From an uncultured Thiohalocapsa sp. (GTDB lineage: Bacteria > Pseudomonadota > Gammaproteobacteria > Chromatiales > Chromatiaceae): a stretch of 46,723 bases of DNA. A model generated the notes under the pieces. The model searched no databases. It was not told where the DNA came from and saw nothing but the letters and a program-made list of their open reading frames with translations. Numbering within the stretch: the stretch's first letter is position 1; every line of letters begins with the position of its first letter. Both the position numbers and the translations under genes were made by a program. Below are positions 22,541-43,398 of the stretch, in pieces. Where the stretch lies: positions 1 to 46,723 of the forward strand of contig NZ_CAJXYK010000050.1 in assembly GCF_913063425.1 (NCBI RefSeq), written 5' to 3'.

Positions 22541-22550
22541 CGACTGTCGC

Positions 22551-22768
22551 AACACCCGGGGCCGCCGAGCTCCACCCGGCAACACCCGGGGCCGCCGAGC
22601 TCCACCCGGCGACGCCTGGGGCCACCGAGCTCCACTCGGCGATTCCCGGGGCCGCCGAGTTCCACTCGGCGACGCCTGGGGCCGCCGAGCTCCACTCGGC
22701 AACACCCGGGGCCGCCGAGCTCCACCCGGCATCGCCTGGGGCCGCCGAGTTCCACTCGGCGACTCCAC
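22551..22768 (+). repeat. Tandem 30-bp hairpin array A (seven units)
   Basis: Seven units of exactly 30 bp between ccmB and ccmC. Each unit is a 17-nt palindrome, GCCGAG-(C/T)TCCA-C(T/C)CGGC, plus a 13-nt spacer such as AACACCCGGGGCC. Palindromes start at 22564, 22594, 22624, 22654, 22684, 22714 and 22744. The last spacer is divergent. It is the same family and orientation as array C, and inverted relative to array B. Confidence 0.93.
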
Positions 22769-22803
22769 AGGCACCGCCAACCCGCCACCCAAAGCACCGC
22801 ATT

Positions 22804-22826
22804 ACCCTTCGGTAACCTCGAAGGGT
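22804..22826 (+). other. Hairpin upstream of ccmC
   Basis: A perfect 8-bp stem ACCCTTCG/CGAAGGGT with a 7-nt loop (GTAACCT). GGTAACC and GGGTTACC also allow alternative pairing with GGGTAACC at 22854-22861. It is followed by a short ATTTTCTT. It may act as a weak terminator or leader structure before ccmC. Confidence 0.4.
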
Positions 22827-22910
22827 TACCCGATTTTCTTAAGCTTGACGCTGGGTAACCCCAAACTCGTTCCCAGATGCTGGTGATACACTGACACGCC
22901 GCCGAGCGCC

Positions 22911-23729
22911 ATGAAGATCAACTGGTTCAAATACGCCTCCCCCACCGCGTTCTACCCGGTGGCCGGCCGGCTCGTCCCGGTCTTCGGGGTCGCCGCGCTG
23001 GCGCTGGTGCTGTTCGCGCTCTACTGGGGCTTCTTCGAGACGCCGGAGCGCCTGGGCGGCACCAACCCGCAGAAGGAGTACTACCGCATCATCTTCATCC
23101 ACGTGCCCGCGGCCTGGATGTCCATGTGGCTGTACCTGGTGCTGGCGGCCTGGTCCGCGGTGGGGCTGGTGTTCAACACGCGCCTCAGCTTCATGATGGC
23201 CAACGCCGTCGCCCCCACCGGCGCCGTCTTCACCTTCCTCGCGCTCTGGACCGGCGCCTTCTGGGGCCGCCCGAGCTGGGGCACCTACTGGGACTGGGAC
23301 CCGCGGCTGACCTCGGAGCTGATCCTGTTCTTCCTGTACGTCGGCTTCATGGCCCTGCACTCGGCCATCGACGACAGCCGCCGGGCGGACCGGGCGGCGG
23401 CGCTGCTGGCCATCGTCGGCCTGGTGATGCTGCCCATCATCTACTGGTCCATCAACTGCCCGGACCCGAACAACTGCGCGGCGTTGCACCAGCGCTCGTC
23501 GCTGACGGACATCGAGTCCAACATCCTCACCGCCATGCTGGTCATGACGCTCGGCTTCTGGCTCTACTCCTTCGCCGCGGCCTTCGCGCGGCTGCGCAAC
23601 ATCATCCTGCTGCGCGAGCAGGACAGCGCCTGGGTGCGCAAGGTGGTGGATGCGGAAGGTGCCGCACCGCCGCCCGCGGGTGGGCTTCCCACACAGGGCC
23701 GCGAAGCCGGCCGGGGGGTGAGCGCCTGA
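22911..23729 (+). CDS. ccmC: Haem transporter/handling protein CcmC
   Basis: A 272-residue inner-membrane haem-handling protein with six predicted helices and the tryptophan-rich periplasmic WWD loop W-G-T-Y-W-D-W-D-P-R-L-T-S-E (near residue 125), which holds haem for transfer to CcmE. Conserved histidines flank it (I-F-I-H-V-P near 61 and A-L-H-S near 150). The C-terminal tail after the last helix is longer than usual and Ala/Gly/Pro-rich. The stop overlaps the ccmD start (TGATG). Confidence 0.93.
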   Translation: MKINWFKYASPTAFYPVAGRLVPVFGVAALALVLFALYWGFFETPERLGGTNPQKEYYRIIFIHVPAAWMSMWLYLVLAAWSAVGLVFNTRLSFMMANAVAPTGAVFTFLALWTGAFWGRPSWGTYWDWDPRLTSELILFFLYVGFMALHSAIDDSRRADRAAALLAIVGLVMLPIIYWSINCPDPNNCAALHQRSSLTDIESNILTAMLVMTLGFWLYSFAAAFARLRNIILLREQDSAWVRKVVDAEGAAPPPAGGLPTQGREAGRGVSA

Positions 23730-23917
23730 TGCAGGGCCTGATCGACTTCCTGAGCCAGGGCGGCTACGCCTTCTACGTCTGGAGCGCCTTCGGCATGACC
23801 TTCGCGCTGCTCATCGCGGAAGTCGTGACACTGCGCCGCAGCCGCCGAACCATTTTGCAGCGCGTCGGTCGATTGGCCCGACTGCGCACGCAGAACGTGC
23901 CACCGGGAGAGCATTGA
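23729..23917 (+). CDS. ccmD: Haem exporter protein CcmD
   Basis: A 62-residue small membrane protein with one transmembrane helix (Y-V-W-S-A-F-G-M-T-F-A-L-L) and a basic cytoplasmic tail, typical for CcmD, which helps release holo-CcmE from the CcmABC complex. The start overlaps the ccmC stop, and the stop overlaps the ccmE start. Confidence 0.88.
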   Translation: MQGLIDFLSQGGYAFYVWSAFGMTFALLIAEVVTLRRSRRTILQRVGRLARLRTQNVPPGEH

Positions 23918-24402
23918 TGAAAGCAAGACAAAAACGCCTGATCTTCGTCGGCGTCGCCGTGGTCGGCGTCGGCATCGCGGCCTCGCTCGCGCTGAGCGCG
24001 CTCAACAGCAACATTGCCTACTTCTTCAGCCCGAGCCAGGTGCACGCCGGGGAGCATCCCACCGATGCGGTCTTCCGCGTCGGCGGTCTGGTGGTGGAGG
24101 ACACGCTGAAGCGCCAGCAGGACGGTCTCACGGTGCGCTTCGATGTCACCGACAACGCCCGCACCGTGCCCGTCAGCTACACGGGCATCCTGCCGGACTT
24201 GTTCGGCGAGGGTCAGGGCGTGGTGGCCAAGGGCCGCATCGGCGAGGACGGCGTCTTCTACGCCGACCAGGTGCTGGCCAAGCACGATGAGTCCTACATG
24301 CCGCCGGAGGTGGAAGACACCCTTCAGACCGCCCACGCCAAGGGCGCCGTGGAGACCGCTGTCCAGTCCATGCCCGCCGCAGGCAACACGGTGACGCAAT
24401 GA
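23917..24402 (+). CDS. ccmE: Haem chaperone CcmE
   Basis: A 161-residue periplasmic haem chaperone with an N-terminal membrane anchor (residues 7-29) and an OB-fold domain. The covalent haem-binding histidine is in L-A-K-H-D-E-S-Y-M-P-P (near residue 125), the HxxxY form. The ATG at 23917 overlaps the ccmD stop, and the 3' end overlaps ccmF by ATGA at 24399-24402. Confidence 0.94.
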   Translation: MKARQKRLIFVGVAVVGVGIAASLALSALNSNIAYFFSPSQVHAGEHPTDAVFRVGGLVVEDTLKRQQDGLTVRFDVTDNARTVPVSYTGILPDLFGEGQGVVAKGRIGEDGVFYADQVLAKHDESYMPPEVEDTLQTAHAKGAVETAVQSMPAAGNTVTQ

Positions 24403-26399
24403 TTCCCGAGCTCGGACACTTCGCACTGATCCTCGCGCTGCTGCTCGCCGTCGTGCAGGCGGCCTTCCCGCTGGCCGGCTCGCTGTCGGGCAACCGGCCC
24501 TGGATGACCATGGCGCGGCCGCTGGCCTACGGTCAGCTCACCATGATCGCCGTCGCCTTCGCCGCGCTGACGCAGGCCTTCCTCACCAGCGACTTCTCGG
24601 TGCTCTACGTCGCCGAGCACTCCAACACCCTGCTGCCGACCATCTACAAGATCTCTGCCGTCTGGGGCGGGCACGAGGGCTCGCTGCTGCTGTGGGTGCT
24701 CATGATGGCCGCCTGGGGTGCCGCGGTGGCGGCCTTCAGCGGCAACCTGCCGCTCACCGTGGTGGCCCGGGTCATCTCGGTGCAGGGCATGGTCGCCATC
24801 GGCTTCCTGCTGTTCATGCTGCTTACGTCCAATCCCTTCGAGCGGCTGTTTCCGGTACCGCCGGAGGGGCGCGACCTGAACCCGCTGCTGCAGGACCCGG
24901 GTCTCGCCATCCACCCGCCCATGCTCTACATGGGCTATGTCGGCTTCTCGGTGGCCTTCGCCTTCGCCGTCGCCGCCCTCATCGGCGGTCGGCTGGACGC
25001 CGCCTGGGCGCGCTGGTCGCGGCCCTGGACCACCGTCGCCTGGGTGTTCCTCACCATCGGCATCATGCTCGGCTCCTGGTGGGCCTACTACGAGCTCGGC
25101 TGGGGCGGCTGGTGGTTCTGGGACCCGGTGGAAAACGCCTCGCTCATGCCCTGGCTGGTGGGCACGGCGCTGATCCACTCCCTCGCGGTCACCGAAAAGC
25201 GCGCCGCCTTCAAGAGCTGGACCGTGCTGCTCGCCATCTGCGCCTTCTCGCTCAGTCTGCTCGGCACCTTCCTGGTGCGCTCCGGTGTGCTCACCTCGGT
25301 GCACGCCTTCGCCACCGACCCGTCCCGCGGCCTGTTCATCCTGATCTTCCTGTGCATCGTCGTCGGCGGCTCGCTGGCGCTGTATGCCTGGCGGGCGCCG
25401 GAGGTCTCGGACGGCGGCCAGTTCGGCGTGGTCTCCCGCGAGTCGGCACTGCTCGGCAACAACCTGATCTTCGTCGCCTTCACCGTGCTGGTGCTGTTCG
25501 GCACCCTGGCCCCGCTCATCTACGAGGCCTTCAACTGGGGCAAGATCTCGGTCGGCTTCCCGTGGTTCAACAAGATGTTCCTGGCACTCTCGCCGTTCCT
25601 GGCGGTGCTGATCGGCCTGGGGCCGGCCACCCGCTGGAAAGGCGACAACCCCATGCGCGTGCTGAAGACCCTGTGGTGGGCATTGGCGCTCAGCATCGTG
25701 GTGCTCGCCGTGAGCGCACTGCCGCTGTTCGGCCACGGCAGCCTGTGGGTGCCCGTGGGGCTGGCGCTGGCGGCCTGGCTGTTCTTCGCGCATGTCGCCA
25801 TCGTGCGCGAGCGGCTGCGGAATAAAGGCGGGCTCGCGCGCATGGGGCCGGCCATCCTCGCCGACCTGCGCGGCAGCGGGCGCAGCTTCTACGGCATGGT
25901 GACTGCGCACGTGGGCGTAGCGATGTTCGTGGTGGGCGTCACTGTGCTCTCGAACGATCAGCTCGAGGAGGACGTGCGCATGTCCCCGGGTGACAGCCAT
26001 GAGCTCGCCGGCTACCGCTTCGAGTTCCTCGGCGCGCAGCCGGCGCCCGGGCCCAATTACATGGCCCAGCGCGGGGAGTTCAAGGTCTACCGCGGCGACC
26101 GCGAGGTCACCCGACTCTATCCGGAGAAGCGGGCCTACATGGGCGGCGGCATGCCCATGACCGAGGCCGCCATCGACCCGGGCCTGTTCCGCGACATCTA
26201 CGTCTCGCTCGGCGAGCCCGTGGGCGACGACGGCGACTGGGCGCTGCGGCTCTACTACAAGCCCTTCGTACGCTGGATCTGGCTCGGCGCCATCCTGATG
26301 GCCCTGGGCGGCGTCCTCGCGGTGTCCGACCCGCGCTACCGCCTGGCCGGTGCCCGCGCCCGCAAGCCCGCCGCGGACGCCGCGGCGGCAACGGCCTGA
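24399..26399 (+). CDS. ccmF: Haem lyase subunit CcmF
   Basis: A 666-residue polytopic membrane protein, the core of the cytochrome c haem lyase. The WWD domain W-G-G-W-W-F-W-D-P-V-E-N-A-S is near residue 234, and further conserved blocks include H-P-P-M-L-Y-M-G-Y-V-G near 170. A large periplasmic domain precedes the final helix. It works with CcmH and CcmI to attach haem to CxxCH motifs. The start is coupled to ccmE. Confidence 0.95.
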   Translation: MIPELGHFALILALLLAVVQAAFPLAGSLSGNRPWMTMARPLAYGQLTMIAVAFAALTQAFLTSDFSVLYVAEHSNTLLPTIYKISAVWGGHEGSLLLWVLMMAAWGAAVAAFSGNLPLTVVARVISVQGMVAIGFLLFMLLTSNPFERLFPVPPEGRDLNPLLQDPGLAIHPPMLYMGYVGFSVAFAFAVAALIGGRLDAAWARWSRPWTTVAWVFLTIGIMLGSWWAYYELGWGGWWFWDPVENASLMPWLVGTALIHSLAVTEKRAAFKSWTVLLAICAFSLSLLGTFLVRSGVLTSVHAFATDPSRGLFILIFLCIVVGGSLALYAWRAPEVSDGGQFGVVSRESALLGNNLIFVAFTVLVLFGTLAPLIYEAFNWGKISVGFPWFNKMFLALSPFLAVLIGLGPATRWKGDNPMRVLKTLWWALALSIVVLAVSALPLFGHGSLWVPVGLALAAWLFFAHVAIVRERLRNKGGLARMGPAILADLRGSGRSFYGMVTAHVGVAMFVVGVTVLSNDQLEEDVRMSPGDSHELAGYRFEFLGAQPAPGPNYMAQRGEFKVYRGDREVTRLYPEKRAYMGGGMPMTEAAIDPGLFRDIYVSLGEPVGDDGDWALRLYYKPFVRWIWLGAILMALGGVLAVSDPRYRLAGARARKPAADAAAATA

Positions 26400-26409
26400 G
26401 GGGGCGGCC

Positions 26410-26955
26410 ATGGCGATGTCCAAGTCCGTGCGCTACCTGACCCCGCTCATCGTCTTTGCGGGGCTCGTGGTGCTGCTGGTGTGGGGCCTGGGGCAGGACC
26501 CCAGCGAGGTCCCCTCGCCCCTCATCGGCAAGCCGGTGCCGGCGTTCAGTCTGCCGGCGCTGGACGACCCGAGCCGCACCGTCTCCGATGCCGACCTCAA
26601 AGGCAAGATCTCACTGGTGAACGTCTGGGCGTCCTGGTGCAGCTCCTGCCGGGCCGAGCATCAGGCACTGATGGCGCTCTCGGAGATCCCGGACTTCCAG
26701 ATCGTCGGCCTCAACTGGAAAGACGACGCCGCGGATGCCAAGCGGGTGCTCCAGCTCACCGGCAACCCCTACGACATGAACGGCTACGACCCGGACAACA
26801 CCGTCGGCATCCACTGGGGCGTCTACGGCGCTCCGGAGACCTTCGTCGTGGACCAGGAGGGCATCATCCGCTACAAGCACATCGGCCCCATCGATCGGGA
26901 GGTCTGGGAGAAAAAGCTCCAGCCGCTGGTTGCGGAGCTGCGGGCCAGGGGCTGA
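26410..26955 (+). CDS. ccmG: Thiol:disulfide interchange protein CcmG/DsbE
   Basis: A 181-residue membrane-anchored thioredoxin-fold protein (helix at residues 10-27). The active site is W-A-S-W-C-S-S-C-R (near residue 77) and the G-V-Y-G-A-P-E-T-F block is typical of CcmG. It keeps apocytochrome or CcmH cysteines reduced. The start ATG 26410 lies 10 bp after ccmF, with GGGGCGG as ribosome site. Confidence 0.93.
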   Translation: MAMSKSVRYLTPLIVFAGLVVLLVWGLGQDPSEVPSPLIGKPVPAFSLPALDDPSRTVSDADLKGKISLVNVWASWCSSCRAEHQALMALSEIPDFQIVGLNWKDDAADAKRVLQLTGNPYDMNGYDPDNTVGIHWGVYGAPETFVVDQEGIIRYKHIGPIDREVWEKKLQPLVAELRARG

Positions 26956-26992
26956 TGCGGGGCGGCGCAGGTCTGCGGCCGGGCGGGCAGCC

Positions 26993-27022
26993 GTAGGGCG
27001 GTTCAGCGCAAGCGTCACCCGA
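26993..27022. repeat. REP-like palindrome, family 1, degenerate copy 3
   Basis: GTAGGGCGGTTCAGC followed by GCAAGCGTCACCCGAC, a degenerate member of the family at 872 and 19996. It lies in the 360-bp gap between ccmG and ccmH. That gap also contains a GTAC-rich stretch (27262-27306) related to the ccmA-ccmB insertion, and has no gene. Confidence 0.45.
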
Positions 27023-27315
27023 CACCCCACAGGCCACGGCGGCGCCGCGTAGAGGGATTTTGCACTGACTCGACCTACACAGGACCACAACCACATCAGC
27101 GACGCGCGACAAGCGGCCGGCAGCCATGCATGACCGGCGTGCCTGCCAGCTCCGGCCCGACCTGCACCGCCGGCGCCATCGCTCGCAGCACTCGGGCGCC
27201 GCGGCACCAACAGCCCGGCGTTACCGCGCCGGCCATAGTGCCTGGATGCCGCGCAGGCCAAGACGCACAGCGTACGTCGCACTTCGTACTTTGGACTCCG
27301 TACTGACAACGACCC

Positions 27316-27816
27316 ATGCCACCACTGATCAAAACCATCCTGCTCGCAGCGCTGCTGGCCTTGGCCATGCCGGCATCGGCTTACACGCTGGAGGAATTTC
27401 AATTCGACAGCCCGGCGCAGGAGGCGCAGTTCCGCGACCTCATCAGCAAGCTGCGCTGCCTGGTGTGTCAGAACGAATCCCTGGCGGGCTCCCAGGCCGA
27501 GCTGGCCCAGGACCTGCGCAACGAGGTCTACCGCATGATGCGCGCCGGACAGTCGAAGGACGAGATCCTCGACTTCCTGGTGGCCCGCTACGGCGACTTC
27601 GTGCTCTATGACCCGCCGCTCAAGCCGTCCACCTACGTCCTCTGGTTCGGACCCTTCGTAATCATCGGCATCGCCGCCTTCTTCATGCTCCGCGCGGTTC
27701 TGCGACGCAAGCCCACCGGTGACGAAGACATCTCCGAGGCCGAGCGCGAGCGCCTGCGCGCGCTGCTGGAGACGGAGTCCGCCGCCGGCACCGACGAGCC
27801 CAAGCAGGCCACCTGA
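27316..27816 (+). CDS. ccmH: Cytochrome c maturation protein CcmH
   Basis: A 166-residue protein with a signal peptide (cleavage near A-S-A, residue 22), a short periplasmic domain carrying the redox motif L-R-C-L-V-C-Q-N (near residue 49) and a C-terminal membrane helix (V-L-W-F-G-P-F-V-I-I-G-I-A-A-F-F). It reduces or holds apocytochrome cysteines for the lyase. CcmH and CcmI are separate genes here, unlike the E. coli fusion. Confidence 0.94.
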   Translation: MPPLIKTILLAALLALAMPASAYTLEEFQFDSPAQEAQFRDLISKLRCLVCQNESLAGSQAELAQDLRNEVYRMMRAGQSKDEILDFLVARYGDFVLYDPPLKPSTYVLWFGPFVIIGIAAFFMLRAVLRRKPTGDEDISEAERERLRALLETESAAGTDEPKQAT

Positions 27817-27855
27817 CCGCCCACCCCATCGCACCGCGCCCCGATACCCCGCATC

Positions 27856-29355
27856 ATGACCATTTTCTGGATTCTCGCCGCCGGCCTCGCGCTGCTGGCG
27901 GCGCTTTTCGTTGCCGCGCCACTGCTCACACATCGCGGCGGCGGCGACGACGCCACAGACCCGGACCAGGCAGAAATCAACCTGGCGCTCTACAAGCAGC
28001 AGCTCGCGGAGCTGGACACGGACCTCGCCGCCGGCAAGCTCGACCGCACCCAATACGAGGCCGCCCGCCGCGACCTTCAGCGGCAGCTGCTGAGCGACAC
28101 CGCCGACCTTGGGCCGGAGGACCCGAAGCCCGCCGCACAGGTGAAGCTGCCAAGCCCGGGCCTCACCGCCGCGGCGCTGGTTTTTGCGGTGCCCGCCACG
28201 GCGCTGGCCCTGTACCTGATCCTGGGCGAGCAGCACATCATCCCGAGGCTGGAGCTCGCCGCCGCCGGCGGTGCCGCGACGCCGCAGCACGCGGGCGCCG
28301 ACGGCATGTCGCTGGAGGTCCTGGTACAGCGCCTGGAAGAGCGCCTGGCACAGGCGCCGGACGATGGCGAGGGCTGGACCATGCTCGGGCGGACCTACTT
28401 CGCCATGGGCCGCACGGACGCCGCTGAGAAGGCCCTGGCGCGGGCGCACGAGCTGCTGCCGGGGGCCACCGACATCACCCTCGCCTACGCCGAGAGCATC
28501 GCCGCCAACAACGACCGCAGCCTGGAGGGCAAGCCCGCGGAGCTGATCTCCGAGGCCCTCGCCGCAGAGCCCGACAACGCCACCGCGCGCTGGCTGTCCG
28601 GCATGGTGGCCTTCCAGCGCGGGCAGTTCCAATCCGCCGCCACCGCCTGGAAGCGCGTGCTCGGGCAGATCGACCCGGCGGGCGACGACGCCCAGGAGCT
28701 GCGCCGGCTCATCGCCCAGGCGGAGCAGCGCGCCGGCGTGCCGCCGCAGATGCAGCTCGCCGCCAACAGCGACGGCGTGCGGGCCGCTGCCACCCCGGCG
28801 CCGGCCCCCGCCGAGACAGCTCCCGCCGACAATTCGCCCCAAGCTGCGGCCGACAGCGCCGGTGCGGCCGAGCAGGAGGCAGCCGCCCCGGCGACACAGC
28901 AGGTGGCACAGGCGGATGCCGGGGCCGCGGATGCACCCGCCCCGGCAACCACCACCTCGCCGGCGGCCGCGCCGACCACGGACGCAGAGGCGCCCGACGC
29001 AGCCGCCGTGCCCGGCATGGATGTGAGCGTATCCCTGGCACCGGCGCTCGCCGGGCGCATGCCGCCCGGCACCACCGTCTTCGTCTTCGCTCGCGCCGCC
29101 GCCGGGCCGCCCATGCCGCTGGCGGTGCAGCGGCTCACGCTGGCGGACCTGCCGGCACGTGTCCGGCTCGACGACAGCATGGCCATGATGCCGCAGATGC
29201 GCCTGTCCGCCTTCCCGCAGGTGGTGGTGGGCGCACGCGTGTCGCCGAGCGGCCAGGCCATGCCGCAGCCCGGCGACCTGGAGGGTGAGACGGGCCCCGT
29301 CGCACCGGCTGACGCCGGCGCCGTCAGCGTCACCATCGACCGCGTGCGGCCTTAG
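27856..29355 (+). CDS. ccmI: Cytochrome c maturation chaperone CcmI
   Basis: A 499-residue protein. Two N-terminal helices (residues 1-22 and about 99-117) flank a cytoplasmic loop with a leucine-zipper-like stretch (Y-K-Q-Q-L-A-E-L-D-T-D-L). A TPR region (about 150-290, with D-G-E-G-W-T-M-L-G-R-T-Y-F-A-M-G) binds apocytochrome c C-termini. A 90-residue Ala/Pro/Thr-rich linker follows. The C-terminal beta-domain (P-G-M-D-V-S-V-S-L-A-P to the end) is the CcmI-specific extension. It lies 39 bp after ccmH. Confidence 0.92.
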   Translation: MTIFWILAAGLALLAALFVAAPLLTHRGGGDDATDPDQAEINLALYKQQLAELDTDLAAGKLDRTQYEAARRDLQRQLLSDTADLGPEDPKPAAQVKLPSPGLTAAALVFAVPATALALYLILGEQHIIPRLELAAAGGAATPQHAGADGMSLEVLVQRLEERLAQAPDDGEGWTMLGRTYFAMGRTDAAEKALARAHELLPGATDITLAYAESIAANNDRSLEGKPAELISEALAAEPDNATARWLSGMVAFQRGQFQSAATAWKRVLGQIDPAGDDAQELRRLIAQAEQRAGVPPQMQLAANSDGVRAAATPAPAPAETAPADNSPQAAADSAGAAEQEAAAPATQQVAQADAGAADAPAPATTTSPAAAPTTDAEAPDAAAVPGMDVSVSLAPALAGRMPPGTTVFVFARAAAGPPMPLAVQRLTLADLPARVRLDDSMAMMPQMRLSAFPQVVVGARVSPSGQAMPQPGDLEGETGPVAPADAGAVSVTIDRVRP

Positions 29356-29411
29356 CCGGCTGCCGAGCGGGCGCGGGACCGCTGCACCGGCAGGCAGAGG
29401 GCAGCCGCAGG

Positions 29412-30572
29412 ATGGCCCAGACGCAGCCCAGACCATCATCCCTGGGCACACTGCTGCCGGTGCTCGCCGCCGCCGCCGCCATCCTGGCGCTGCCGCTGCT
29501 GGGTGCCGTCCTGGGCGGGCTGCCGCTGGGCGAGCTGCTGCAGATACCGCTCACCACCCGCCCCTGGGACCCCTTGGGCGCGAGCCCGCTCATCACCTGG
29601 CTCGCGGCGACGCTCAGCCTCGCGCTGCTCGCCGCAACCGCGTACTTCGCCTGGCCGCGGCGGCCCGGCGGGCGCCGGCTGCCGGCACCCGCCCCGCGCC
29701 GCATCCCGCGCTTCGCCTGGCTCGGCGTCTTCGCACTGCTGCTTGCGATCATCGCCGCCGACGGTGCGGCGGTCAGTGCCGTTGTCGGACTGGCGGTGTT
29801 GGCGCTCGCGCTCTTCGCCAACGCGGACACGGAGCGTCGCACCGGCAGCAGCCTGCTGAGTCAGCGCCCGGGCTACTTCCGCAGCCTGTTCGCGGCGAGC
29901 CTCGCCGCCGGCTGGCTGTTCCACTGGCTGAACCTGTTCCTCAAGCTCTGGGTCTATCCGCCGGCGACGGAGCTCGTCCCCTTCTTGCTCGGCAACTCCC
30001 TGGCCTATGCGGTGCTGTTGCCGGCGTTGCTGAGCCTGCGGCAATGGCTCGCATCCTTGCCGGCCGTGCTGGGCGCCGTCACCCGGGCCGAGCCGCTGTC
30101 CGGCGCCGACGCCTCACCGCAGGAGGGCCTCATCCTGCTGCTGGCGGCGCTGCTCGGCCTCGCCGGCGCCGCACTCTGGCCGGACTGGATCTACCCCTTG
30201 AGCCTCAGCGCCCCGCTGCTGCTGGCGGTGGCCATCCAGCAACTGCGCGGGCGGCCGACACCACTCGCCGGTCTGCAAACCGGCGACTGGAGCCGCCTGC
30301 TGCTGCCCGCACTGGCGGCGCTGCTGCTCGGTCTGGTGGCGCAGGGGCTCAACGCCTGGCTCGGACCGGCCTGGGCGCTGCATCTGCCGCTCCTCGGCGG
30401 CCCCGAGCTGCTGGACCTGCCGCTGCCCGGCTGGGTGTGGATCATGCTGCTCGGCCCCTTCGGCGTCTGGCTCGGCGATCAACTGGCAGAGCCGTGGCAG
30501 CAGCGCCCGCAGCAGCCGCCGCCGGCCCAGGGTCGCTTTCCGGTGCGGATCGAGATCGGCGACGGGTCCTAA
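29412..30572 (+). CDS. Polytopic membrane protein of unknown function at the end of the ccm operon
   Basis: Not recognised. A 386-residue, very leucine/alanine-rich protein with about ten predicted membrane helices, no obvious catalytic motif and no CxxCH. It starts 56 bp after ccmI with a CGCAGG ribosome site on the same strand, so it is probably transcribed with the operon. That suggests a role near cytochrome c biogenesis or haem handling, but no tryptophan-rich WWD loop is present. Codon use resembles its neighbours. The next feature downstream is hairpin array B. Confidence 0.7.
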   Translation: MAQTQPRPSSLGTLLPVLAAAAAILALPLLGAVLGGLPLGELLQIPLTTRPWDPLGASPLITWLAATLSLALLAATAYFAWPRRPGGRRLPAPAPRRIPRFAWLGVFALLLAIIAADGAAVSAVVGLAVLALALFANADTERRTGSSLLSQRPGYFRSLFAASLAAGWLFHWLNLFLKLWVYPPATELVPFLLGNSLAYAVLLPALLSLRQWLASLPAVLGAVTRAEPLSGADASPQEGLILLLAALLGLAGAALWPDWIYPLSLSAPLLLAVAIQQLRGRPTPLAGLQTGDWSRLLLPALAALLLGLVAQGLNAWLGPAWALHLPLLGGPELLDLPLPGWVWIMLLGPFGVWLGDQLAEPWQQRPQQPPPAQGRFPVRIEIGDGS

Positions 30573-30790
30573 CGCACCACTGCGCAAGATGCGAGGCCGC
30601 GCCCTGGGGACGCGGACTTCAGTCGGCACCTCAGGAGGACGGACTTCTGTCCGCCGGTGGCAGATGACCGCTCGTGTCGGGGTGGGCCGGGGCGCTCAAG
30701 CACGCGAGCCCAGGCTCGGCGAAGTGGAAGCGGGACTGCAAAACCGACTTGAGCCGGGGGCTGTCCTTGACGTCGGCGCTTCTGGAGCTG

Positions 30791-31090
30791 GCCGACTGGA
30801 AGTCGGCGCCCCCGGATGTCGCCGACTGGAAGTCGGTGGCCCCGGATGCCGCCGACTGGAAGTCGGTGGCCCCAGATGCCGCCGACTGGAAGTCGGCGCC
30901 CCCAGATGTCGCCGACTGGAAGTCGGCGCCCCCAGATGTCGCCGACTGGAAGTCGGTGGGCCCGGATGTCGCCGACTGGAAGTCGGTGGGCCCGGATGTC
31001 GCCGACTGGAAGTCGGCGCCCCCGGATGTCGCCGACTGGAAGTCGGTGGGCCCGGATGTCGCCGACTGGAAGTCGGCGGCTCCGGGGAGG
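30791..31090 (-). repeat. Tandem 30-bp hairpin array B (ten units, inverted orientation)
   Basis: Ten units of exactly 30 bp, palindromes starting every 30 bp from 30791 to 31061. On the plus strand each reads GCCGACTGGAAGTCGG plus a 14-nt linker. Read on the minus strand the unit is spacer GACATCCGGGGGC plus GCCGACTTCCAGTCGGC, which aligns with arrays A and C. The stem has one C-G pair where A/C have G-C, and the loop TTCCA is the same. Weak single relatives occur at 30611-30627 and 30638-30655. Confidence 0.93.
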
Positions 31091-31093
31091 GAG

Positions 31094-31155
31094 GGTGGAT
31101 CAGCGGAGGGCATCCACCGCAGGCCCGAACGGCGGATGCGCTGCGCTGATCCGCC
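31094..31155. repeat. Pair of REP-like palindromes, family 2, copies 2 and 3
   Basis: GGTGGAT...ATCCACC at 31094-31118 and GGCGGAT...ATCCGCC at 31131-31155, separated by 12 bp, directly after array B. The second differs by a T-A to C-G swap in the stem that keeps pairing. The pair resembles a small BIME-type cluster between the convergent ccm operon and the lipoprotein gene. Confidence 0.6.
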
Positions 31156-31205
31156 CGGCTGAGTCGCGCATTCTTCCGGGAGCGTGGTACTCCCTGTCCT
31201 GTCTC

Positions 31206-32804
31206 TCAGCGCTTGCGGGCGTCCTCCAGCCGCAGCGCGAACGAAGGCTCCAGCCGGATGCCCTGCACCGCATCGCGCAGCACCAGGTTCTGCCGCCAGC
31301 TCGCCACCGTCACCCAGGGGGCGTCGCGCTGCACCACGCGGGCCAGCTCGCGGTAGAGCCGGGCGCGCTCGGTGCGCTCGGTGGCGCGCCGCGCCTGGGC
31401 GACAAGCCGGTCCACCGCCGGGTTGCAGTACCAGCCGGAGTTGAAGCCGCCGGCGTCGGGCGTCGCCCCGCAGCGCAGTGCCAGATACGGCAGGGTATCC
31501 GGGTCATTGGTCATCCAGGCCATCTGCGCCAGGTCCGCATCGCCGTCCAGACCGTCATTGACCCGTGCCAGGTACGCATTCCACTCGAAGCTCTCGATGC
31601 GCGCCTGCACCCCCACCTGCGCCAGGTCGCCCTGAATGGCCGTCGCCATGGCCAGCGGCGCGAGCATGCCGGAGCCGCCGCGGGGCACCAGGAAATTCAG
31701 ACTGAAGCCATCGCCCCAGCCCGCCTCCGCGAGCAGCGCCCGGGCCAGGTCCGGGTCATGGGCATAGGCCGGCAGGTCCGGGGCATGCGCCCAGCGGAAG
31801 GCCGCCGGCACCGGGCCATCCGCCACCACCGCGGTGTCGCGCAGCACGTCCTGCACCAGCGCGCGGCGGTCGATGGCATGGTTCAGCGCACGGCGCACGC
31901 GCACATCCGCAAGCGGGCCGTCGCGGGTGTTCAGAATCAGGAACCACAGGTGCGGCCCGGTGGCCTCCAGCACCCGATAGCCCTGGCGGGCGCGAAACGC
32001 CGCCACATTGTCCGGCGAGAGCTCCAGCGCCAGGTCCACGCCCCCCGCCAGCAGCTCTGCCACGCGGGTCATGGGGTCCGTCAAGGGTCGGAAGATGACG
32101 TTTGCAAGCGCCACCTCGCCGCCGTGCCAGCCCTCGAAGCGCGCGAGCCGCACCTGCCCGCCCCGCTCCCAGCCGGTGAGCCGGAACGGCCCCGTACCGC
32201 TCGGGTGGCGGCCATAGTCCTTGCCCCAGCGGCGCACCGCCGCCGGCGAGACCATCAGCGCCGTGGGATAGGCCAGATTGGACAGGAAGGGCGCAAAGGG
32301 CCGGCGCAGCTCGAAGCGCACCGTCAGCGCGTCTTCCACCACCACGCGCGCCACCTGCTCGAAGAAGAACGCGAGCGGAAAGGGGCCGGTGTCGTGGAAG
32401 GGATGCTCGGGGTCCAGCATGCGCTGGAAATTGAAGCGCACCGCCGCCGCATCGAAGGCGCTGCCGTCATGAAAGCGCACCCCGTCCCGGAGCTTGAACC
32501 GATACACCCGGCCATCCTCGGACACCGTCCAGGACGCCGCCAGCCCCGGCACCAGCTCCAGGGTACCCGGGCGGTAGCGCACCAGGCCCTCGTACAGGTT
32601 CACCAGGATGCGGAAGTCGTTCAGGGCCGTGGTGACCTGCGGGTCCAGCGACCGGGGCGCCGCCACCTGCCCCACCACCAGCGTGTCCGCCGGCGGGGTC
32701 TGGCGGGCACAGCCGGCGGCGAGACACAGTCCCACCGACACCGCCAGCGGTACCCAGGTGCGCAACAGCGGCAAACCGCGCCGAAGTGAGCGCCGGCTCA
32801 GCAA
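31206..32804 (-). CDS. Family 5 extracellular solute-binding lipoprotein (peptide/nickel ABC type)
   Basis: About 532 residues. The N-terminus has a basic region and hydrophobic stretch ending L-A-A-G-C, a lipobox, so the mature protein is a lipid-anchored periplasmic protein. The body matches SBP_bac_5 proteins: R-S-L-D-P-Q near the start, N-L-Y-E-G-L-V-R-Y, L-A-A-S-W-T-V-S-E-D-G-R-V-Y-R-F-K-L-R, then V-R-R-A-L-N-H-A-I-D-R-R. It should bind oligopeptides or a similar ligand, but no permease or ATPase gene is adjacent. No ATG exists near the expected start. TTG 32804 gives the best signal peptide, and GTG codons upstream are alternatives. The frame runs on into hairpin array C without a stop, but that part is repeat, not protein. 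Confidence 0.82.
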   Translation of the reverse strand: MLSRRSLRRGLPLLRTWVPLAVSVGLCLAAGCARQTPPADTLVVGQVAAPRSLDPQVTTALNDFRILVNLYEGLVRYRPGTLELVPGLAASWTVSEDGRVYRFKLRDGVRFHDGSAFDAAAVRFNFQRMLDPEHPFHDTGPFPLAFFFEQVARVVVEDALTVRFELRRPFAPFLSNLAYPTALMVSPAAVRRWGKDYGRHPSGTGPFRLTGWERGGQVRLARFEGWHGGEVALANVIFRPLTDPMTRVAELLAGGVDLALELSPDNVAAFRARQGYRVLEATGPHLWFLILNTRDGPLADVRVRRALNHAIDRRALVQDVLRDTAVVADGPVPAAFRWAHAPDLPAYAHDPDLARALLAEAGWGDGFSLNFLVPRGGSGMLAPLAMATAIQGDLAQVGVQARIESFEWNAYLARVNDGLDGDADLAQMAWMTNDPDTLPYLALRCGATPDAGGFNSGWYCNPAVDRLVAQARRATERTERARLYRELARVVQRDAPWVTVASWRQNLVLRDAVQGIRLEPSFALRLEDARKR

Positions 32805-32880
32805 AGCCCCAAGCCCTGCGCCACCGGCACGGTTGATCGCGGCCCCGCCACACCAAACAACCACTGCCGCGGCAACAACC

Positions 32881-33150
32881 CAGGGGCGCCGAGCTCCACT
32901 CGGCAACACCCGGGCGCCCCGAGCTCCACTCGGCAACACCCGGGGACGCCGAGCTCCACTCGGCAACACCCGGGGACGCCGAGTTCCACTCGGCAACACC
33001 CGGGGGCGCCGAGTTCCACTCGACAACACCCGGGCGCCCCGAGTTCCACTCGGCAACACCCGGGCGCCCCGAGTTCCACTCGGCAACACCCGGGGACGCC
33101 GAGTTCCACTCGGCAACACCCGGGGGCGCCGAGTTCCACTCGGCAACACG
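32881..33150 (+). repeat. Tandem 30-bp hairpin array C (nine units)
   Basis: Nine exact 30-bp units between cysC and the lipoprotein gene. Each has the palindrome GCCGAG(C/T)TCCACTCGGC and a spacer like AACACCCGGGGAC. Some units have CCCCGAG in the first arm, and one has CTCGAC in the second. Same family and orientation as array A. Confidence 0.93.
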
Positions 33151-35639: not shown

Positions 35640-35801
35640 TTGATCCATCTCAACGTCGTCCTCGACGTGCTGCTCGAACGCAAGCCGCACGCCGCCGAAC
35701 ACCAGCGAAGATCTCAAGGCGCTCGCACCGCTGGCATAGTGGATCTGTGCTGCGGCAGCGCCCTGGCCGACACTCCGTACACTGTCAATCTGCCAATCTG
35801 A
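35640..35801 (+). pseudogene. Deleted PIN-domain toxin remnant
   Basis: A TTG at 35640 starts L-I-H-L-N-V-V-L-D-V-L-L-E-R-K-P-H-A, the first strand and helix of a PIN nuclease (usually D-T-N-V-V-L-D-V-L). Sixty bases later, in another frame, E-D-L-K-A-L-A-P-L-A-stop (35707-35739) looks like a toxin C-terminus. About 100 residues between them are missing, so an internal deletion has removed the catalytic core. It partners the intact antitoxin upstream and overlaps the convergent csb2 3' end by 17 bp. Confidence 0.6.
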
Positions 35802-38010
35802 AAAGCCCACCCCCCAGGTGTCGCGTGCGCCCTATGAGCACTGGGCCGCGCTGAGCGGCAGCAAAGCGAAGTCGCAAACGCCCCGCGAGCCCGCCACGCG
35901 GTCCCTCCTCGACGGAAAGCACGTCGACCTCCGGGTCGGGCAGACGCCCCCGCCGAGTCTCACGAAGCACGTCTTCGACGACGGCAGCTTCAGGGGCCGA
36001 CTTCTTCGCGTGGCGTGTCGGACGGTAATCGCTCACCGACTCCCACACGCGGCCCGTCCCGAACACCAGATCCCGGTCCGGATCCACTGCGCCACCGATA
36101 AGGCGCAGTCGTCCCGCCGCACCGGCGCGCAGATCATCCATGCCGTCGAGCGCAGTGGTGAGCAAACCCCAATGCTCGCGCTCCCACGTCATGGGATACC
36201 GCCGTTCAAGCAAGTGCGGTGGGATGACCAATAGCCTGTCGCGCGCCAGGTCTGCGACAAAGGCCAAATGGCGGTGCGCACCCGACCGCAGGGGCTCGCC
36301 ATCGGGCTGATGACCTGTGAAGTAAGGCGGAAGCGGTCGCCCTTGGCCGATCTGCGTCTGCACCCGCGCCATCACAGCCCGCCGCAGTGCCGCGGCAACC
36401 GCCCCGGGCCTCGCGGCGGGCGCCAATCCGCCCGCTATGTGGAACGCAAGCACGTCCGTTCCCTCATGCTCCGGCGCCAGCAGTCCAAGGCCAAGGTACC
36501 GTCCATCGCCCAGCACCAATGGGCCTTCAACGAGGTTGCGAAACCGAATCTCCACGTGCCACAGCCTTTCCTTGGCGAAACGCGTGCCTTGGGCAAACGC
36601 GTCGGCCCGTACCCCCTTAGGGCTGAAGGGCTCCCGCTGAACTCTAATGCCCTCCACAGGAGCGCTCAGCTCCGCGTGCCGCAGCGCCTGAAGTACCGCC
36701 CCGCACGCCTGCTCCTCCTCGGCCACGCGCTCGCTGCCCGGCTTCCAGTCTCCCCGGCGCCGGTCGGGATCAATCCGACGGCGCGCGGCGGACTCTGGCA
36801 ATACCACCGGTGTCACGCTGCGCCAGCACTTGTACCCATCACCCGCTTCCACACCGTATCGCTGCAACATGGACACATCATCGCTGCGCACCAGAAGCGT
36901 ATCCCCCGCCCCAACCCCATTGATGCGCAGCCCCGACAGCGCCCAGTCCAGGTCACCAAAGCGCAGCGGACATTCGGGCGGCGCCGTGACCAGAAGGCGG
37001 CGAATGGAGCGGTTGGTCAGCTCATGGCCGATGGAGGGCAACGGCAGTAGGCGCACCCGACGCGCCTTGTCCCCGCTCTCCGCACCGCGACCGATCAACA
37101 ACCGTTCGATAAGGCCGGCCTGCTCAGGCAACGCCGCCGCCAGCTTGGCCGCGGCGGCATCACGCACCTGCTCCACCAGGTCCACCGCACGCGCCTGCGG
37201 CCAGGAGCGCAACGGCCGCCGTCCGCCTTCGTGGTCGGCTCGCAGGTCAAACAACCGCCAGGCGGCGGAGGCGTTGTAAGTGACTTGCAGGAAGCGCGGC
37301 TTGGGCGGGTTGGTGAAAAACACCTTGGATTTCCTGCCCGTCTTGACAGTGCTGAAGCGCTGCCGATGAGCATCGAAGCGTGTCACGAGACTCTCCAGAG
37401 ACCCGAGCTGCGGACAGCTCAGCGCCGGGCCACTGCCCTGCGCGCTCGGACGCCAGACCGCACCGCAGGCCGCATCCATCGCGGCGCCGCCCGCTTCGGC
37501 GTCGAGGATCTCCGCCCAAGCCCAAGCCAGGTCCACGCCGCGTCCGAGTTGATACAGGTTCTCTGCCATCGCACAGACCACGCCCGCGGCCTGCTCGCTC
37601 TCGCCATCGGCTCGGAACCGCCAGCCGTAAATCAAAGGTTGCGACGATTCGATATGCCGCGGCCGAATGCGTTTGCCGACCCGGATATCCGCGATCCTGG
37701 CAGGGTCCCCACCCTTCGCGTCCAGGTCGTTGTTGGGCACGAAGGTCGTGTAGGAAAGACCGACCAGAGGGCGCTGCGCGCGAATCTCTGGTGGCCCGGC
37801 CTCGCTTTCGAGCCAGCGCAACGCGGCTGCGCACTCGGGCGGCAAACGTGCGCCGACCGCGTTGCCGGCGAGCAACGCCTGGAACAGCCGAGCCGGCGAC
37901 GGAGGCCAGCCGTCGAGGCCGGCATCGCCTTCTCCGTGATATCGGTCGTCCAAGAAGTGGATGCGGATCAAGAGCATCCTGTCCGCTGTGCGTTCGATCT
38001 CGACCGCCAT
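35785..38010 (-). CDS. csb2: Type I-G CRISPR protein Csb2 (Cas5-Cas6 fusion)
   Basis: A 741-residue protein of the GSU0054 family. It starts with a RAMP-type domain (M-L-L-I-R-I-H-F-L-D-D-R-Y-H-G, then W-P-P-S-P-A-R-L-F-Q-A-L-L-A-G), the Cas5-like part. It ends with G-P-V-L-I-G-R-T-R-H-L-G-G-G-L-F, a glycine-rich loop like those of Cas6 RNA-processing proteins. In type I-G systems this fusion processes pre-crRNA and holds the crRNA 5' part in the effector complex. It is longer than many family members. The start at 38010 lies 4 bp after csb1. It is the last gene of the interference operon. Confidence 0.9.
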   Translation of the reverse strand: MAVEIERTADRMLLIRIHFLDDRYHGEGDAGLDGWPPSPARLFQALLAGNAVGARLPPECAAALRWLESEAGPPEIRAQRPLVGLSYTTFVPNNDLDAKGGDPARIADIRVGKRIRPRHIESSQPLIYGWRFRADGESEQAAGVVCAMAENLYQLGRGVDLAWAWAEILDAEAGGAAMDAACGAVWRPSAQGSGPALSCPQLGSLESLVTRFDAHRQRFSTVKTGRKSKVFFTNPPKPRFLQVTYNASAAWRLFDLRADHEGGRRPLRSWPQARAVDLVEQVRDAAAAKLAAALPEQAGLIERLLIGRGAESGDKARRVRLLPLPSIGHELTNRSIRRLLVTAPPECPLRFGDLDWALSGLRINGVGAGDTLLVRSDDVSMLQRYGVEAGDGYKCWRSVTPVVLPESAARRRIDPDRRRGDWKPGSERVAEEEQACGAVLQALRHAELSAPVEGIRVQREPFSPKGVRADAFAQGTRFAKERLWHVEIRFRNLVEGPLVLGDGRYLGLGLLAPEHEGTDVLAFHIAGGLAPAARPGAVAAALRRAVMARVQTQIGQGRPLPPYFTGHQPDGEPLRSGAHRHLAFVADLARDRLLVIPPHLLERRYPMTWEREHWGLLTTALDGMDDLRAGAAGRLRLIGGAVDPDRDLVFGTGRVWESVSDYRPTRHAKKSAPEAAVVEDVLRETRRGRLPDPEVDVLSVEEGPRGGLAGRLRLRFAAAQRGPVLIGRTRHLGGGLFRLAD

Positions 38011-38014
38011 GGAA

Positions 38015-39995
<1,981 letters not shown>

Positions 39996-39996
<1 letters not shown>

Positions 39997-42680
39997 CAGC
40001 AGTCCTCCTGTGCGGCGGCCTTCGAGGCCTGTTGGTCCGCGGCGCGCAGCAGCGCCTCCCACCACGCCAGCCCCCAGGGACCCCAGCGATGCTGCAGGCG
40101 CACGAAGCGCAGGGCGACGTCCCGCGCGCGGGCGTCGAGCTGCGACGGCGGCGCCTCCTCGCAGCCGCGGGTGACGATGGTGGGGCGTGCCTGGCCGTGA
40201 TGTGCGGCGATCAGGTGCAGCACCAGCTCACGCTGGTCGGGTGCGAGTGCCTGGAACGCGGCGTCCTGCTCCGCATGGAACAGGGAGCCGAGCTCGTGCC
40301 GATAGCCGTCCAGGACCTGCTGGTCGATTGGCCCCTTGGTCTTCGCGTAGGGCTCACCGCCACGTGGAGCGCGGAAAGCAGTCTGCCAGCGGTCGGCGCG
40401 CTTGCCCTCGTCGTGCAGCCGAGCTGCGACGACAAGCACCTGCGTTGCCCACTCCGTGAGGCCGAGCCGCTCAGCGATGGCCCGTGCCTTTGCCTCCGCG
40501 CAGGCCTGGTGGTCGGCCAGCGTTTGCAGGTACCCGAGTGAACGGTCGTCTTCGGTCGCGGCGGTCTGTCGCCACTGGTAGACGTCGAGGGCAGCGCTGG
40601 TCTCTCCGTCGGCGTCCCGCTTCAGTACGAACTGGTGCCGTCGGTGCCAGCCGGGGACGCCATCGAGTCCAGCGTCCTCGGTGCCGCTCCAGCGCAGCAC
40701 GCGCCACGGGATCACCGGGCTTGCGCTCGATGCCCCGATGTCCGGGAGTACGTCATCGTCCGCGACCCAGGTCGGCGCATCTGCATGTTTCGCGTCGAGC
40801 GTTCCGATCCCGGCCAAGCCACCGACCAGGGTCGAGACCACCAGGGTGCGCGCGGCAAGCTCCCGGACCAACCGATCCTTGTTGACGCCGTCGAGGTCCC
40901 TTAGCCGATAGGCTCGCTCAAAGTCACCTGCCTGACCGAGCGCGATGGCGATGATGTGTTGCGGCTGCGGCACGACCACATCGATAGGACCGTTGGCCTT
41001 GGCCGCGGCGACTTTCAGGAGCGCTTTCGCACGCGCGATCAGCCATTCGGCGACGCGGTAGCTCTCCGTCTCCAGTTTCTCAGCGGCATGCGGCGGCGCG
41101 GCTTCGAAGTAATCGTCTACGGCCTTGGGGCGCACCTGGCCATCATCCGACGCTTCCTGTTCTGCGACCGGCAGATGCGCCCGCCAAACAACAGCCGTCT
41201 GAGGTTGGTCGTCCACCCATCCGCGAAGCCAGGGCTGTACTTCCGGGCGCCCCGTGTGCTCGCGCAGTGTGGTCATGGACCAGGCGTCCACCAGCGGGCG
41301 GTTCAGGGCCGGGCGCAGCGGTGCCGGCGTGGTGGCGGCATCGAGCGCAGCGCGTCGCTCGTCATTGGCGTCGAGCTTGAAAACCCGCAGCGCACCGGGG
41401 CTCGCATCGAACCCCTCCTCCGTATCCGGCAGCGCCTCCATCACCGCTTTCAGGGCGGCATGAGCCCGGCCTTGCTCTACCGATTTCGGATCGAGGGGAC
41501 CAAAGTCGAGGACCACTACCCTGGCATCGCCGGTGCCGCGCCGGTTGACCCGGCCAAGCCGCTGGACCATGCGCTCCCAGGCAACCAGATCGCAGACCAT
41601 GTGATCGGCATCCAGGTCCACGCCCACCTCACCGGCGGAAGTGGCGACCAGGAAGCGCAGCCGCTCATCGTTGGCGCGGGCGTCGGCCAAAAAGCCCAGC
41701 GCCGCCAGGCTGTCGGCAGCGAGCTGACGCTCGTGGCCGCGACGGGCGCCGATGAAGAGCTCGGGCTCACACAGTGGCGGCGCTTGCTCCGCTTTACGCT
41801 GCTTTTTGACCCGCTCGGCAAGATCCCGATGCACCTTCTCGGCATCGTCGCGGGAATTGCAGTACACCAGGCAACGCATGGCCAGGGTGCCCTCGCCGCT
41901 CAGCCCCCACGCGGCGTCTGCCAGATCCTTCGGGCGCTGCTTCGGATCGCCGCGCCTGATCTCCAGGGACTTCTTGGCATCGAGCCGCTGGCGGGTGATG
42001 GAGCCCGGCTCGCCCAAGTCCGTGTCGCGCAGCGCGAAAACCTCGCCCCGGCGACCCCGCCCGGTCGCGGAGAGCGACAGCAGCCGGAGCGGCGGCACGC
42101 GCACCAGATCAGCGGACGCCTCCTGCCCGTAATCCCCGGCACCTGACTCCACCGCTTCCAGCAGCCGCTCGAACGGGGGCACCAGATGCGCCTCATCCAG
42201 CACCACCAGGGTGTCTGCACCGAGCAAGCCCGCATGGTACGGCCGCATTTTGCGCGAGACTCCATAGCCCGAGAACAGCAGCCGGGAGCCAATCATGTCC
42301 ACGGTGCCGACGATGATGGCCGGCTGCGCGGGGTCATCCAGCCACTCACGGTTGTCGATGTGCTGTCCGCGGAGCGTCGAGATGGGAAACCGCTCTGCTT
42401 TCGGGAGCCGCTTGCAGAGGTTTTCCACAAACGCCGTTGCCTGGTCCACGACTGCGCGCCGGTCCACCACGTACACCAGGCGTCGCGGCAGCTTTCGCCC
42501 CGCGCGAATGGCGATCAGCCAAAGAGCCGTGACCGCCGTCTTGCCAAGCCCCGTTGGCACATCCACGGCTGCCGGCAGGCGATCCTGGTCGAAGTACTCC
42601 AGGAATAGGCGCGTCTGCCAGGGCAACGGCTGGTGATCCGTGAGCCGCTCAAAGCGGTCCTGGAACTCGAACTCGTTCAT
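39996..42680 (-). CDS. cas3: Type I-G Cas3 helicase-nuclease with C-terminal HD domain
   Basis: An 894-residue protein with the domain order helicase then HD nuclease, which is characteristic of type I-G (I-U) Cas3. Walker A V-P-T-G-L-G-K-T is at residues 41-48, the DEAH box L-D-E-A-H-L near 160, and motif VI Q-R-L-G-R-V-N-R-R-G near 375. The C-terminal HD metal site is seen as A-R-L-H-D-E-G-K near 752, R-H-E near 800 and A-A-H-H-G near 826. It unwinds and degrades target DNA after recruitment by the crRNA complex. ATG 42680 has a strong AGGAGGG site. First gene of the interference operon. Confidence 0.94.
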
Positions 42681-42891
42681 CTTTCCCTCCTTGTGGTGCG
42701 CGTTACCGGAAGGGTGTCGTCCGCTTCCGGGAGGTCAATGAGGCCCCGGCGCTCGCCGCCGGGGAAATGTTGCGCGCAAGCAACAACGCTGAGCGAATCG
42801 TCTGCTTCAATCAGCGGCGGTGTCGGCACCGCCGACCTTCGATCAGCCCAACATCTTGGGCTTTACTGATCGCATGGTGCTAGATATGCTT

Positions 42892-42911
42892 ACAAACACT
42901 TAGTTGTTTGT
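42892..42911. promoter_or_regulatory. Candidate operator/promoter for the cas3 operon
   Basis: An inverted repeat ACAAACA-CTTAGT-TGTTTGT in an AT-rich patch about 210 bp upstream of cas3. On the minus strand TTGACA overlaps its right arm, a possible -35 box, but no good -10 follows at 17 bp. The site is placed where a regulator such as the WYL protein could act. Confidence 0.4.
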
Positions 42912-43132
42912 CAAACCGCTGTGCTAATCGTCTGAACCATGCTCACCTCGCACTTCACTACCTCTCTCTTGTTGACTTTGAAGTCCTGCTCGTGAGCGTC
43001 ATCGGCATGTTGTCCCTGGTGCTTGTGCTGGTTTTGCACAGGACGGGCCGCCTCGACGCGTCGCTCAAGCTCGCCTACCTGCTTCTCGCTGCGACAGTCT
43101 TCTTGCTCGCGGGCAAGCACACTCTCGGTTGA
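42908..43132 (+). CDS. Possible small membrane protein
   Basis: Weakly supported. The frame encodes up to 74 residues with two hydrophobic segments (V-L-L-V-S-V-I-G-M-L-S-L-V-L-V-L-V-L and L-A-Y-L-L-L-A-A-T-V-F-L-L-A), separated by a basic turn. Possible starts are TTG 42908, GTG 42992 and ATG 43007, none with a strong ribosome site. It lies in the gap between the two cas transcription units. If real, a small membrane-active peptide here could be defence-related. Confidence 0.25.
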   Translation: MSNRCANRLNHAHLALHYLSLVDFEVLLVSVIGMLSLVLVLVLHRTGRLDASLKLAYLLLAATVFLLAGKHTLG

Positions 43133-43398
43133 CGCCCCCGGCCGGCGACAGCGGCACAGCGGCGTTTCTGGCAGACCGGCCCGTCAGTTGGCAGGCCACC
43201 TTGCTTGAGGAAGTGCGCAGATCTTGTGTCCGGAGCTCGTTCGCACGGCGGTCCAAAGCGGCATGGAATAACGCTTTGTCTTCAGTGCGTCCGGATCAGG
43301 GAGACCCCTAGTCGGAGCCGAGCGCGTGTGACGCTCCGTGCCCCAAGCCCTCACTTACCTCGGCATCACCTTGCCCACGTTTTACCACGCGCACAGGC
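43133..43398. other. Unassigned part of the gap between the two cas operons
   Basis: I see no recognisable gene, repeat or RNA here. Together with 43774-44396 it forms the bulk of the 1.7-kb spacer between the interference and adaptation modules. Confidence 0.4.

Follow-up and report, generated by a model that had tools for sequence, protein, structure and literature searches.

Background

Repetitive extragenic palindromes (REPs) are short hairpins of 20-50 nt, multi-copy and mostly intergenic. Those of Escherichia coli are dispersed repeats with a 5' tag, published as GT[AG]G, and they flank the gene for a REP-associated tyrosine transposase (RAYT, also TnpAREP; PDB 4er8), a Y1/HUH protein with a Y---NP motif. 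Three tandem hairpin arrays (A, B and C) lie in a 46,723-nucleotide contig of an uncultured Thiohalocapsa sp. (NZ_CAJXYK010000050.1, the whole of which is called the window below). Judging from their sequence and from the company they keep, these arrays are very probably REP elements of a RAYT. They resemble the E. coli system in the protein, the flanked gene, the dispersal of the repeats and the presence of a tag. They differ from it in the tag itself, which is mostly GGAG, GGAA or GGAC here, and in forming long arrays of one orientation, each with its own period.

PMC8266576 describes a guiding role for the tag, shown for one TnpAREP: the cleavage dinucleotide is complementary to guide bases 4 and 3. 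The E. coli REP described there has a bulge, whereas the stem here is a perfect one of 6-7 bp. The GTAG-tagged REP super-family (Di Nocera 2013, PMC3733652) is comparable to the present repeats in its short tagged palindromes, its link to a transposase and its tandem clusters. These clusters are described as reiterated with flanking DNA, so that tandem REP arrays as such are already known. Pseudomonas fluorescens REPINs offer a further parallel, as PMC3116915 treats REPs as a miniature mobile DNA family. Subclasses 2.6 and 3 of TnpAY1 (Quentin 2018, PMC6006769) are likewise reported to lack a GT[AG]G consensus. They are given weaker, atypical structures, 2.6 being mostly from Bacteroidetes with the motif YIH[QN]NP and class 3 having YV..EQ, and the automated REP search of that study relied on GTAG/GTGG. 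By this description, the strong stems and YIxxNP motif seen here appear to set the present lineage apart from both. A literature search for a GGRN-tagged RAYT/REP lineage found no description in titles and abstract openings, a weak negative since subscription papers lay mostly outside it, and under the same restricted coverage nothing was found on REPs in Chromatiaceae or on tandem REP arrays.

Hairpin arrays in the window

The three arrays are as follows.

22549..22760, plus strand: array A, lying between ccmB and ccmC; seven REP hairpins (class GCCGAG...CTCGGC) at a 30-bp period
30791..31085, minus strand: array B, lying between a conserved open reading frame (ORF) and an SBP_bac_5 gene; ten REP hairpins (class GCCGAC...GTCGGC) at a 30-bp period
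32870..33149, plus strand: array C, lying between the SBP_bac_5 gene and an adenosine 5'-phosphosulfate (APS) kinase gene; nine REP hairpins (class GCCGAG...CTCGGC) at a 30-bp period

An earlier note on this DNA had described three 30-bp hairpin arrays of 7, 10 and 9 units, all between genes, with B inverted and carrying GAC...GTC in place of the GAG...CTC of A and C. All of this holds. Tandem Repeats Finder reports 30-bp repeats in 7.1 (A), 9.8 (B) and 9.3 (C) copies, and each unit consists of a 17-nt palindrome and a 13-nt gap. The consensus units proposed at the time fared less well. The form GCCGAGTTCCACTCGGC, taken as usual for A and C, is exact in only two of the seven and three of the nine units; that for B is exact in five of ten, giving exact copies of the two forms in 10 of 26 units. 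The proposed A/C spacer fits C and is unsuitable for A, because the spacers of A all end in GGGGCC. The spacer similarity between arrays is, by inspection, mostly the 5' tag of the next hairpin. This tag has the form YGGGNNC on 24 of the 26 units and GGRNC on 19. At least one non-Watson-Crick pair among the outer six occurs in 13 units (A 4/7, B 5/10, C 4/9).

A CRISPR reading of the arrays was rejected because the 13-nt spacers recur within each array and are not unique (four distinct among six in A, five among nine in B, three among eight in C). No described RNA family matched the window above the Rfam gathering score (0 matches), and an ARAGORN scan of the window gave no tRNA. The conserved ORF before array B ends at 30572 and has no Pfam match. 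Just before the array, at 30600-30660, are two degenerate hairpin-like stretches, GCGGACTTCAGTCGGC and CGGACTTCTGTCCG, which may be REPs from a related stem class that have decayed.

The hairpin family across the genome

A whole-genome search for the 17-nt palindrome, as the earlier note had advised, gave 107 exact copies of the pattern GCCGASTTCCASTCGGC in 5.9 Mb, against none for the pattern read backwards; every match listed is one of the two paired forms. The copies lie on both strands (63 plus, 44 minus), so that the two orientations seen in the window, although present as claimed, are ordinary for REPs. Among 56 genomes, this one included, the pattern was found in five (107, 7, 6, 1 and 1 matches). 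The repeats are therefore short and multi-copy, and intergenic at A, B and C, as expected of REPs. The REP identification is firm by sequence and co-occurrence (the latter described below), and the arrays appear to be an ordinary kind of element in unusual dress.

Units were counted in 43 genomic stretches totalling 297,692 bases. Selection by tag and left arm alone gave 233 units, in 222 of which pair 6:12 is intact (131 G-C, 91 C-G) and in 11 of which it is lost; the G-C to C-G swap does keep pairing, as the earlier note had said. A looser list of 273 units (219 tagged on a strand) fell into 104 clusters, 46 being single units and 34 having three or more. Of the 34, 22 have spacings that differ by no more than 1 bp. 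Several of the remaining 12 just skip one unit (30 and 60 bp), and a few (L105, L123 and L139) truly vary. The period changes from cluster to cluster, between 26 and 46 bp. The 30-bp period that had been taken as exact is thus among the commonest (29-30 bp) and not family-wide, and the idea of 30 bp as a functional phase was dropped because of the other arrays. Periods that are specific to an array and steady within it suggest local tandem amplification, and each array would thus be the local amplification of one insertion.

A RAYT gene flanked by tagged hairpins

The earlier note had also proposed looking for a co-occurring RAYT. The PF01797 profile has 11 matches in this genome. One, on contig C54, belongs to an intact RAYT of 187 residues, which matches the profile above its cut-off. 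The gene has an array of GAG-class hairpins on either side, 15 in one and 12 in the other, with a single orientation within each array. The protein retains the HUH motif (NHVH) and the tyrosine motif (YIAQNP), and it scores 88.9 bits with NCBIfam NF047646 (REP_Tyr_transpos; cut-off 80). It scores only 35.7 bits with the IS200 model, below the cut-off of 55, and is thus distinct from IS200/IS605 TnpA. Its family profile matches the TnpAREP of PDB 4er8 (E-value: 7e-11).

Homologues with at least 64% identity occur in only four of the ten genomes of the genus: this genome (G000), G008, G001 (two copies) and G002. All of them have arrays or pairs of hairpins, behind a YGGGNNC-like tag, in their flanks. 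The stems beside them differ (GAG, or GGC with several loops), and all are still palindromic. A more distant homologue in G001 (49% identity) has another hairpin type in its flanks. The tagged hairpin YGGGNNC-GCCGR...YCGGC is present 255, 29, 85 and 202 times in G000, G008, G001 and G002, respectively, and 1, 3, 7, 5, 10 and 5 times in the six genomes without this RAYT clade (backward controls: 0-4 per genome). The association of clade and hairpin abundance has a Fisher p of 0.005 over the ten genomes, with the split chosen after the counts were seen. The earlier suggestions of a mobile element and of a RAYT are supported by both sequence and co-occurrence, and the hairpins of A-C are probably mobile DNA elements.

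Eight other RAYTs of this genome were placed on the tree discussed below. Seven have neither the GG nor the GT kind of tag nearby, and one (locus L011 from contig C40, RAYT at 1501-1830) is of a second type with motifs DHLH and YIVANP. It lies beside GTGGGAGC-tagged hairpins about 81 bp apart, a canonical kind of tag, and is an internal contrast to the C54 clade within the same genome.

Two stem classes

The earlier note had read the G-C to C-G swap as covariation pointing to a maintained fold. Neighbouring units in this genome are mostly in the same orientation (127 of 148). Of these same-orientation neighbours, 126 of 127 share one stem class, while 17 of 21 inverted neighbours join the two classes. 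With a looser unit definition and the window left out, the figures are 99/117 and 30/31. This division indicates that the swap separates two sub-families, which appear to belong to one system and are also joined in inverted dimers, like the Y and Z2 REPs of E. coli, described in PMC6006769 as inverted pairs of two sub-families. The swap is thus a genuine compensatory change, and what it marks is this division rather than ongoing covariation inside arrays. Among 263 units with at most two substitutions from either class, 101 deviating pair events comprise two compensated changes, 79 wobbles on one strand and 20 mismatches. Covariation inside the sub-families is weak, and since 99 of the 101 events leave no Watson-Crick pair, the uncompensated stem changes that the earlier note had named as contrary evidence are in part what was found.

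Work on P. fluorescens REPINs reportedly concerns inverted REP pairs. The present family is unlike REPINs in that same-orientation neighbours dominate and inverted ones mostly join two stem classes. Composite arrays at L121 (2900-3950) and L123 (2960-3340) alternate plus-strand GAC-class with minus-strand GAG-class units, reiterated with the intervening DNA. A layout like that of E. coli bacterial interspersed mosaic elements (BIMEs) is found at some loci, while A-C have a single class and a single orientation each.

Insertion history and proposed mechanism

None of nine relatives has a hairpin of either class in the ccmB-ccmC interval, and alignment with G008, G007 and G003 reveals an empty site. 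Array A, which only one of the ten genomes compared in the genus has, appears to illustrate how a REP was recently inserted and amplified. The aligned flanks of array C are separated by 439-470 bp here but by 105-129 bp in G008, G007 and G003, and no array C hairpin is present at that site in these three. The site of array B is empty in G007 and G003 and holds one GAC-class unit in the same orientation in G008. This unit is a candidate ancestor of array B; compared by eye, its flanks have no clear similarity to those of the array. The ccmB-ccmC interval of G002 (L068) contains a different hairpin of the GTGGGAGC type (GTGGGAGCGGCAC...).

The proposed model is as follows. The HUH/tyrosine protein is predicted to bind a single-stranded hairpin with its 5' tag. 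The RAYT would then cut and transfer the strand, scattering units into intergenic gaps. An inserted unit, together with a few flanking bases, would be amplified head-to-tail in place by replication slippage, unequal exchange or repeated RAYT strand transfer, which would give each array its own period. A, B and C would be three such insertions. Both the part of the C54 RAYT in mobilisation and the mode of amplification are inferred, and any effect of the arrays on adjoining genes is probably incidental.

The wider RAYT lineage and its tag

Named genomes were scanned with six aligned RAYTs. Out of 434 relatives the best 80 were analysed. They had been preselected with two peptide patterns, are mostly metagenome-assembled genomes (MAGs) and include a Chromatiaceae MAG (L194) with 64% RAYT identity. 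Of 925 GGRNC tags within 300 bp of the RAYT gene, 207 are followed directly by a hairpin, at 68 of 80 loci. The figure is 6 of 538, at 3 of 79 loci, for 300-bp stretches taken at a distance of 1500 bp. GTAG has a hairpin directly after it in 12 of 147 cases near the same genes (5 loci), and four control tags in 4-23 cases each (4-8 loci). An orientation-free motif search that assumed no tag also recovered GGA(G/A)C directly 5' of the stem (284 hairpins, 79 loci). Among these 284 distinct hairpins the tag is GGAG in 116, GGAA in 45 and GGAC in 25. The published tag is rare, with GT[AG]G at -8..-5 in one and GTAG at -5..-2 in nine. In this respect both the window units and the lineage are unlike the GTAG-tagged super-family, which has GT[AG]G at the hairpin foot.

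Stems have diverged with their pairing largely kept. When units are anchored on three outer pairs, the inner four pairs of the 126 distinct ones are 81% complementary, compared with 42% (maximum 49% in 500 trials) when right arms are dealt anew. Fully paired units number 81 of the 126 and have 42 distinct left arms.

A quick RAYT tree of 91 rows was scored by the commoner tag within 600 bp, a lax rule under which one hairpin suffices. This gave 66 GG, 9 GT, 3 tied and 13 rows with none. One GT row from this genus (L044) bears for the most part a tag of the GGTAC type, which escapes the strict pattern, and L187 and L222 seem to be genuine users of GTGG/GTAG. More GGRNC- than GT[AG]G-tagged hairpins lie near 63 of the 77 named rows, spread over 16 phylum labels; single phyla may be misassigned because many rows are MAGs. 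Of the six Bacteroidota rows, only one was scored GG, a further difference from subclass 2.6 with its mostly Bacteroidetes members.

Inverted pairs at the 80 named loci are heterotypic in 52 cases and homotypic in 34 (36 loci, 18 with a heterotypic and 15 with a homotypic majority), and same-orientation pairs in 5 and 35, respectively. In DNA folding of 79 distinct tags-out pairs, two local hairpins were preferred by 23 of the 52 heterotypic pairs, by none of the 27 homotypic ones and by none of 54 artificial homotypic versions. In this genome the preference holds for only 4 of 13 heterotypic inverted pairs. The view that heterotypic inverted pairs avoid cross-pairing is thus only partly supported, and the role of the swap in such pairs is inferred.

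The RAYTs beside GGRNC-tagged hairpins look like an under-described RAYT/REP lineage. A joint reading is offered tentatively, as somewhat less than an even case. In it, a RAYT lineage with about 16 phylum labels would have GGRN rather than GT[AG]G as its guide tetranucleotide, and its stems would have diverged from species to species through compensated changes. The published guide rule would then give it other cleavage dinucleotides wherever guide bases 4 and 3 differ from AG; extrapolated in this way, the rule predicts CC, GC and TC for guides GGGG, GGGC and GGGA, and CT for GGAG. The halves of inverted pairs would often have been given different stems, with less mutual pairing and less burial of the tag. 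In nature the lineage offers many matched RAYTs and hairpins, with a tag other than GT[AG]G and stems of dozens of kinds. With these it is testable whether recognition by the protein depends on the tag or on the stem, and whether the site of cleavage is set by the tag. The lineage could escape automated REP searches in which GT[AG]G is a requirement.

Alternative explanations

Several observations weigh against the assignment of the arrays to a RAYT. Half of the A-C units have a broken stem pair, and the lone 17-mer match in G005, which lacks the RAYT clade, is an unpaired combination that also speaks against strict pairing. In G004, again without the clade, tagged hairpins number 10, where the control gives one. 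Only a single RAYT of the C54 clade was found in this genome, and its flanks hold the GAG class. The GAC class is absent from the fetched flanks (up to 1.5 kb per side, shorter at contig ends) of all 11 PF01797 loci. For this reason a separate RAYT for GAC-class repeats in this genome has no support, and mobilisation of array B's class by the C54 protein can only be presumed. Among the named relatives, 13 of 80 loci have no GGRNC-tagged 7-bp hairpin within 320 bp of the RAYT, and hairpins at least 1200 bp away are tagged too in 36 of 117 cases (14 of 47 loci), which are read as dispersed copies. The preselection by peptide patterns and the abundance of MAGs add to these points.

The strongest alternative, itself unlikely, is that the arrays act as RNA, that is, as transcribed trains of hairpins that stabilise, terminate or attenuate the ccm and transporter mRNAs and are retained for that purpose. 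The location of all three between genes would suit such a role, as would folding, each array being more stable than the mean of 40 letter-shuffled versions on both strands. Counted once per array, G-U pairs are in excess on the strand opposite the tag (34 versus 10, p = 0.0004). Without the loop-closing pair the counts are 14 versus 5 (p = 0.06), and the strand bias is a lead only. The mRNA would, however, carry the tag strand at A and the opposite strand at C. Array A is missing between ccmB and ccmC in nine relatives, B and C vary too, and the family is spread over dozens of further loci. Nothing was found in support of the mRNA stabiliser or attenuator that the earlier note had considered.

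A binding array for a host DNA-binding protein such as gyrase or integration host factor (IHF), serving chromosome or gene control, is less probable still. It has a precedent in the E. coli BIMEs, which bind gyrase and IHF according to Nunvar 2010 (PMC2817692). Against it, presence at the three sites varies between close relatives and nothing seen points to a conserved array position; the earlier idea of a binding array for an unknown protein found no support either. Least likely of all is a plain, microsatellite-like tandem duplication of a chance palindrome with no tie to a transposase: slippage would give the array-dependent periods and the agreement of spacings in 22 of 34 clusters, but tag and hairpin recur together in 104 clusters, many of them single units, the units are numerous in the genus only alongside the RAYT clade, and a RAYT gene lies between two such arrays.

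Other features of the window

Type I-G CRISPR-Cas genes occupy 35785-46133 and comprise csb2 (GSU0054 family), Cas_GSU0053, cas3g and a cas4g/cas1g fusion; csb2 lies 2.6 kb past array C. The left part of the window contains two further tandem repeats, one of 21 bp (8.5 copies) at 3055-3233 and one of 14 bp at 2766-2869.

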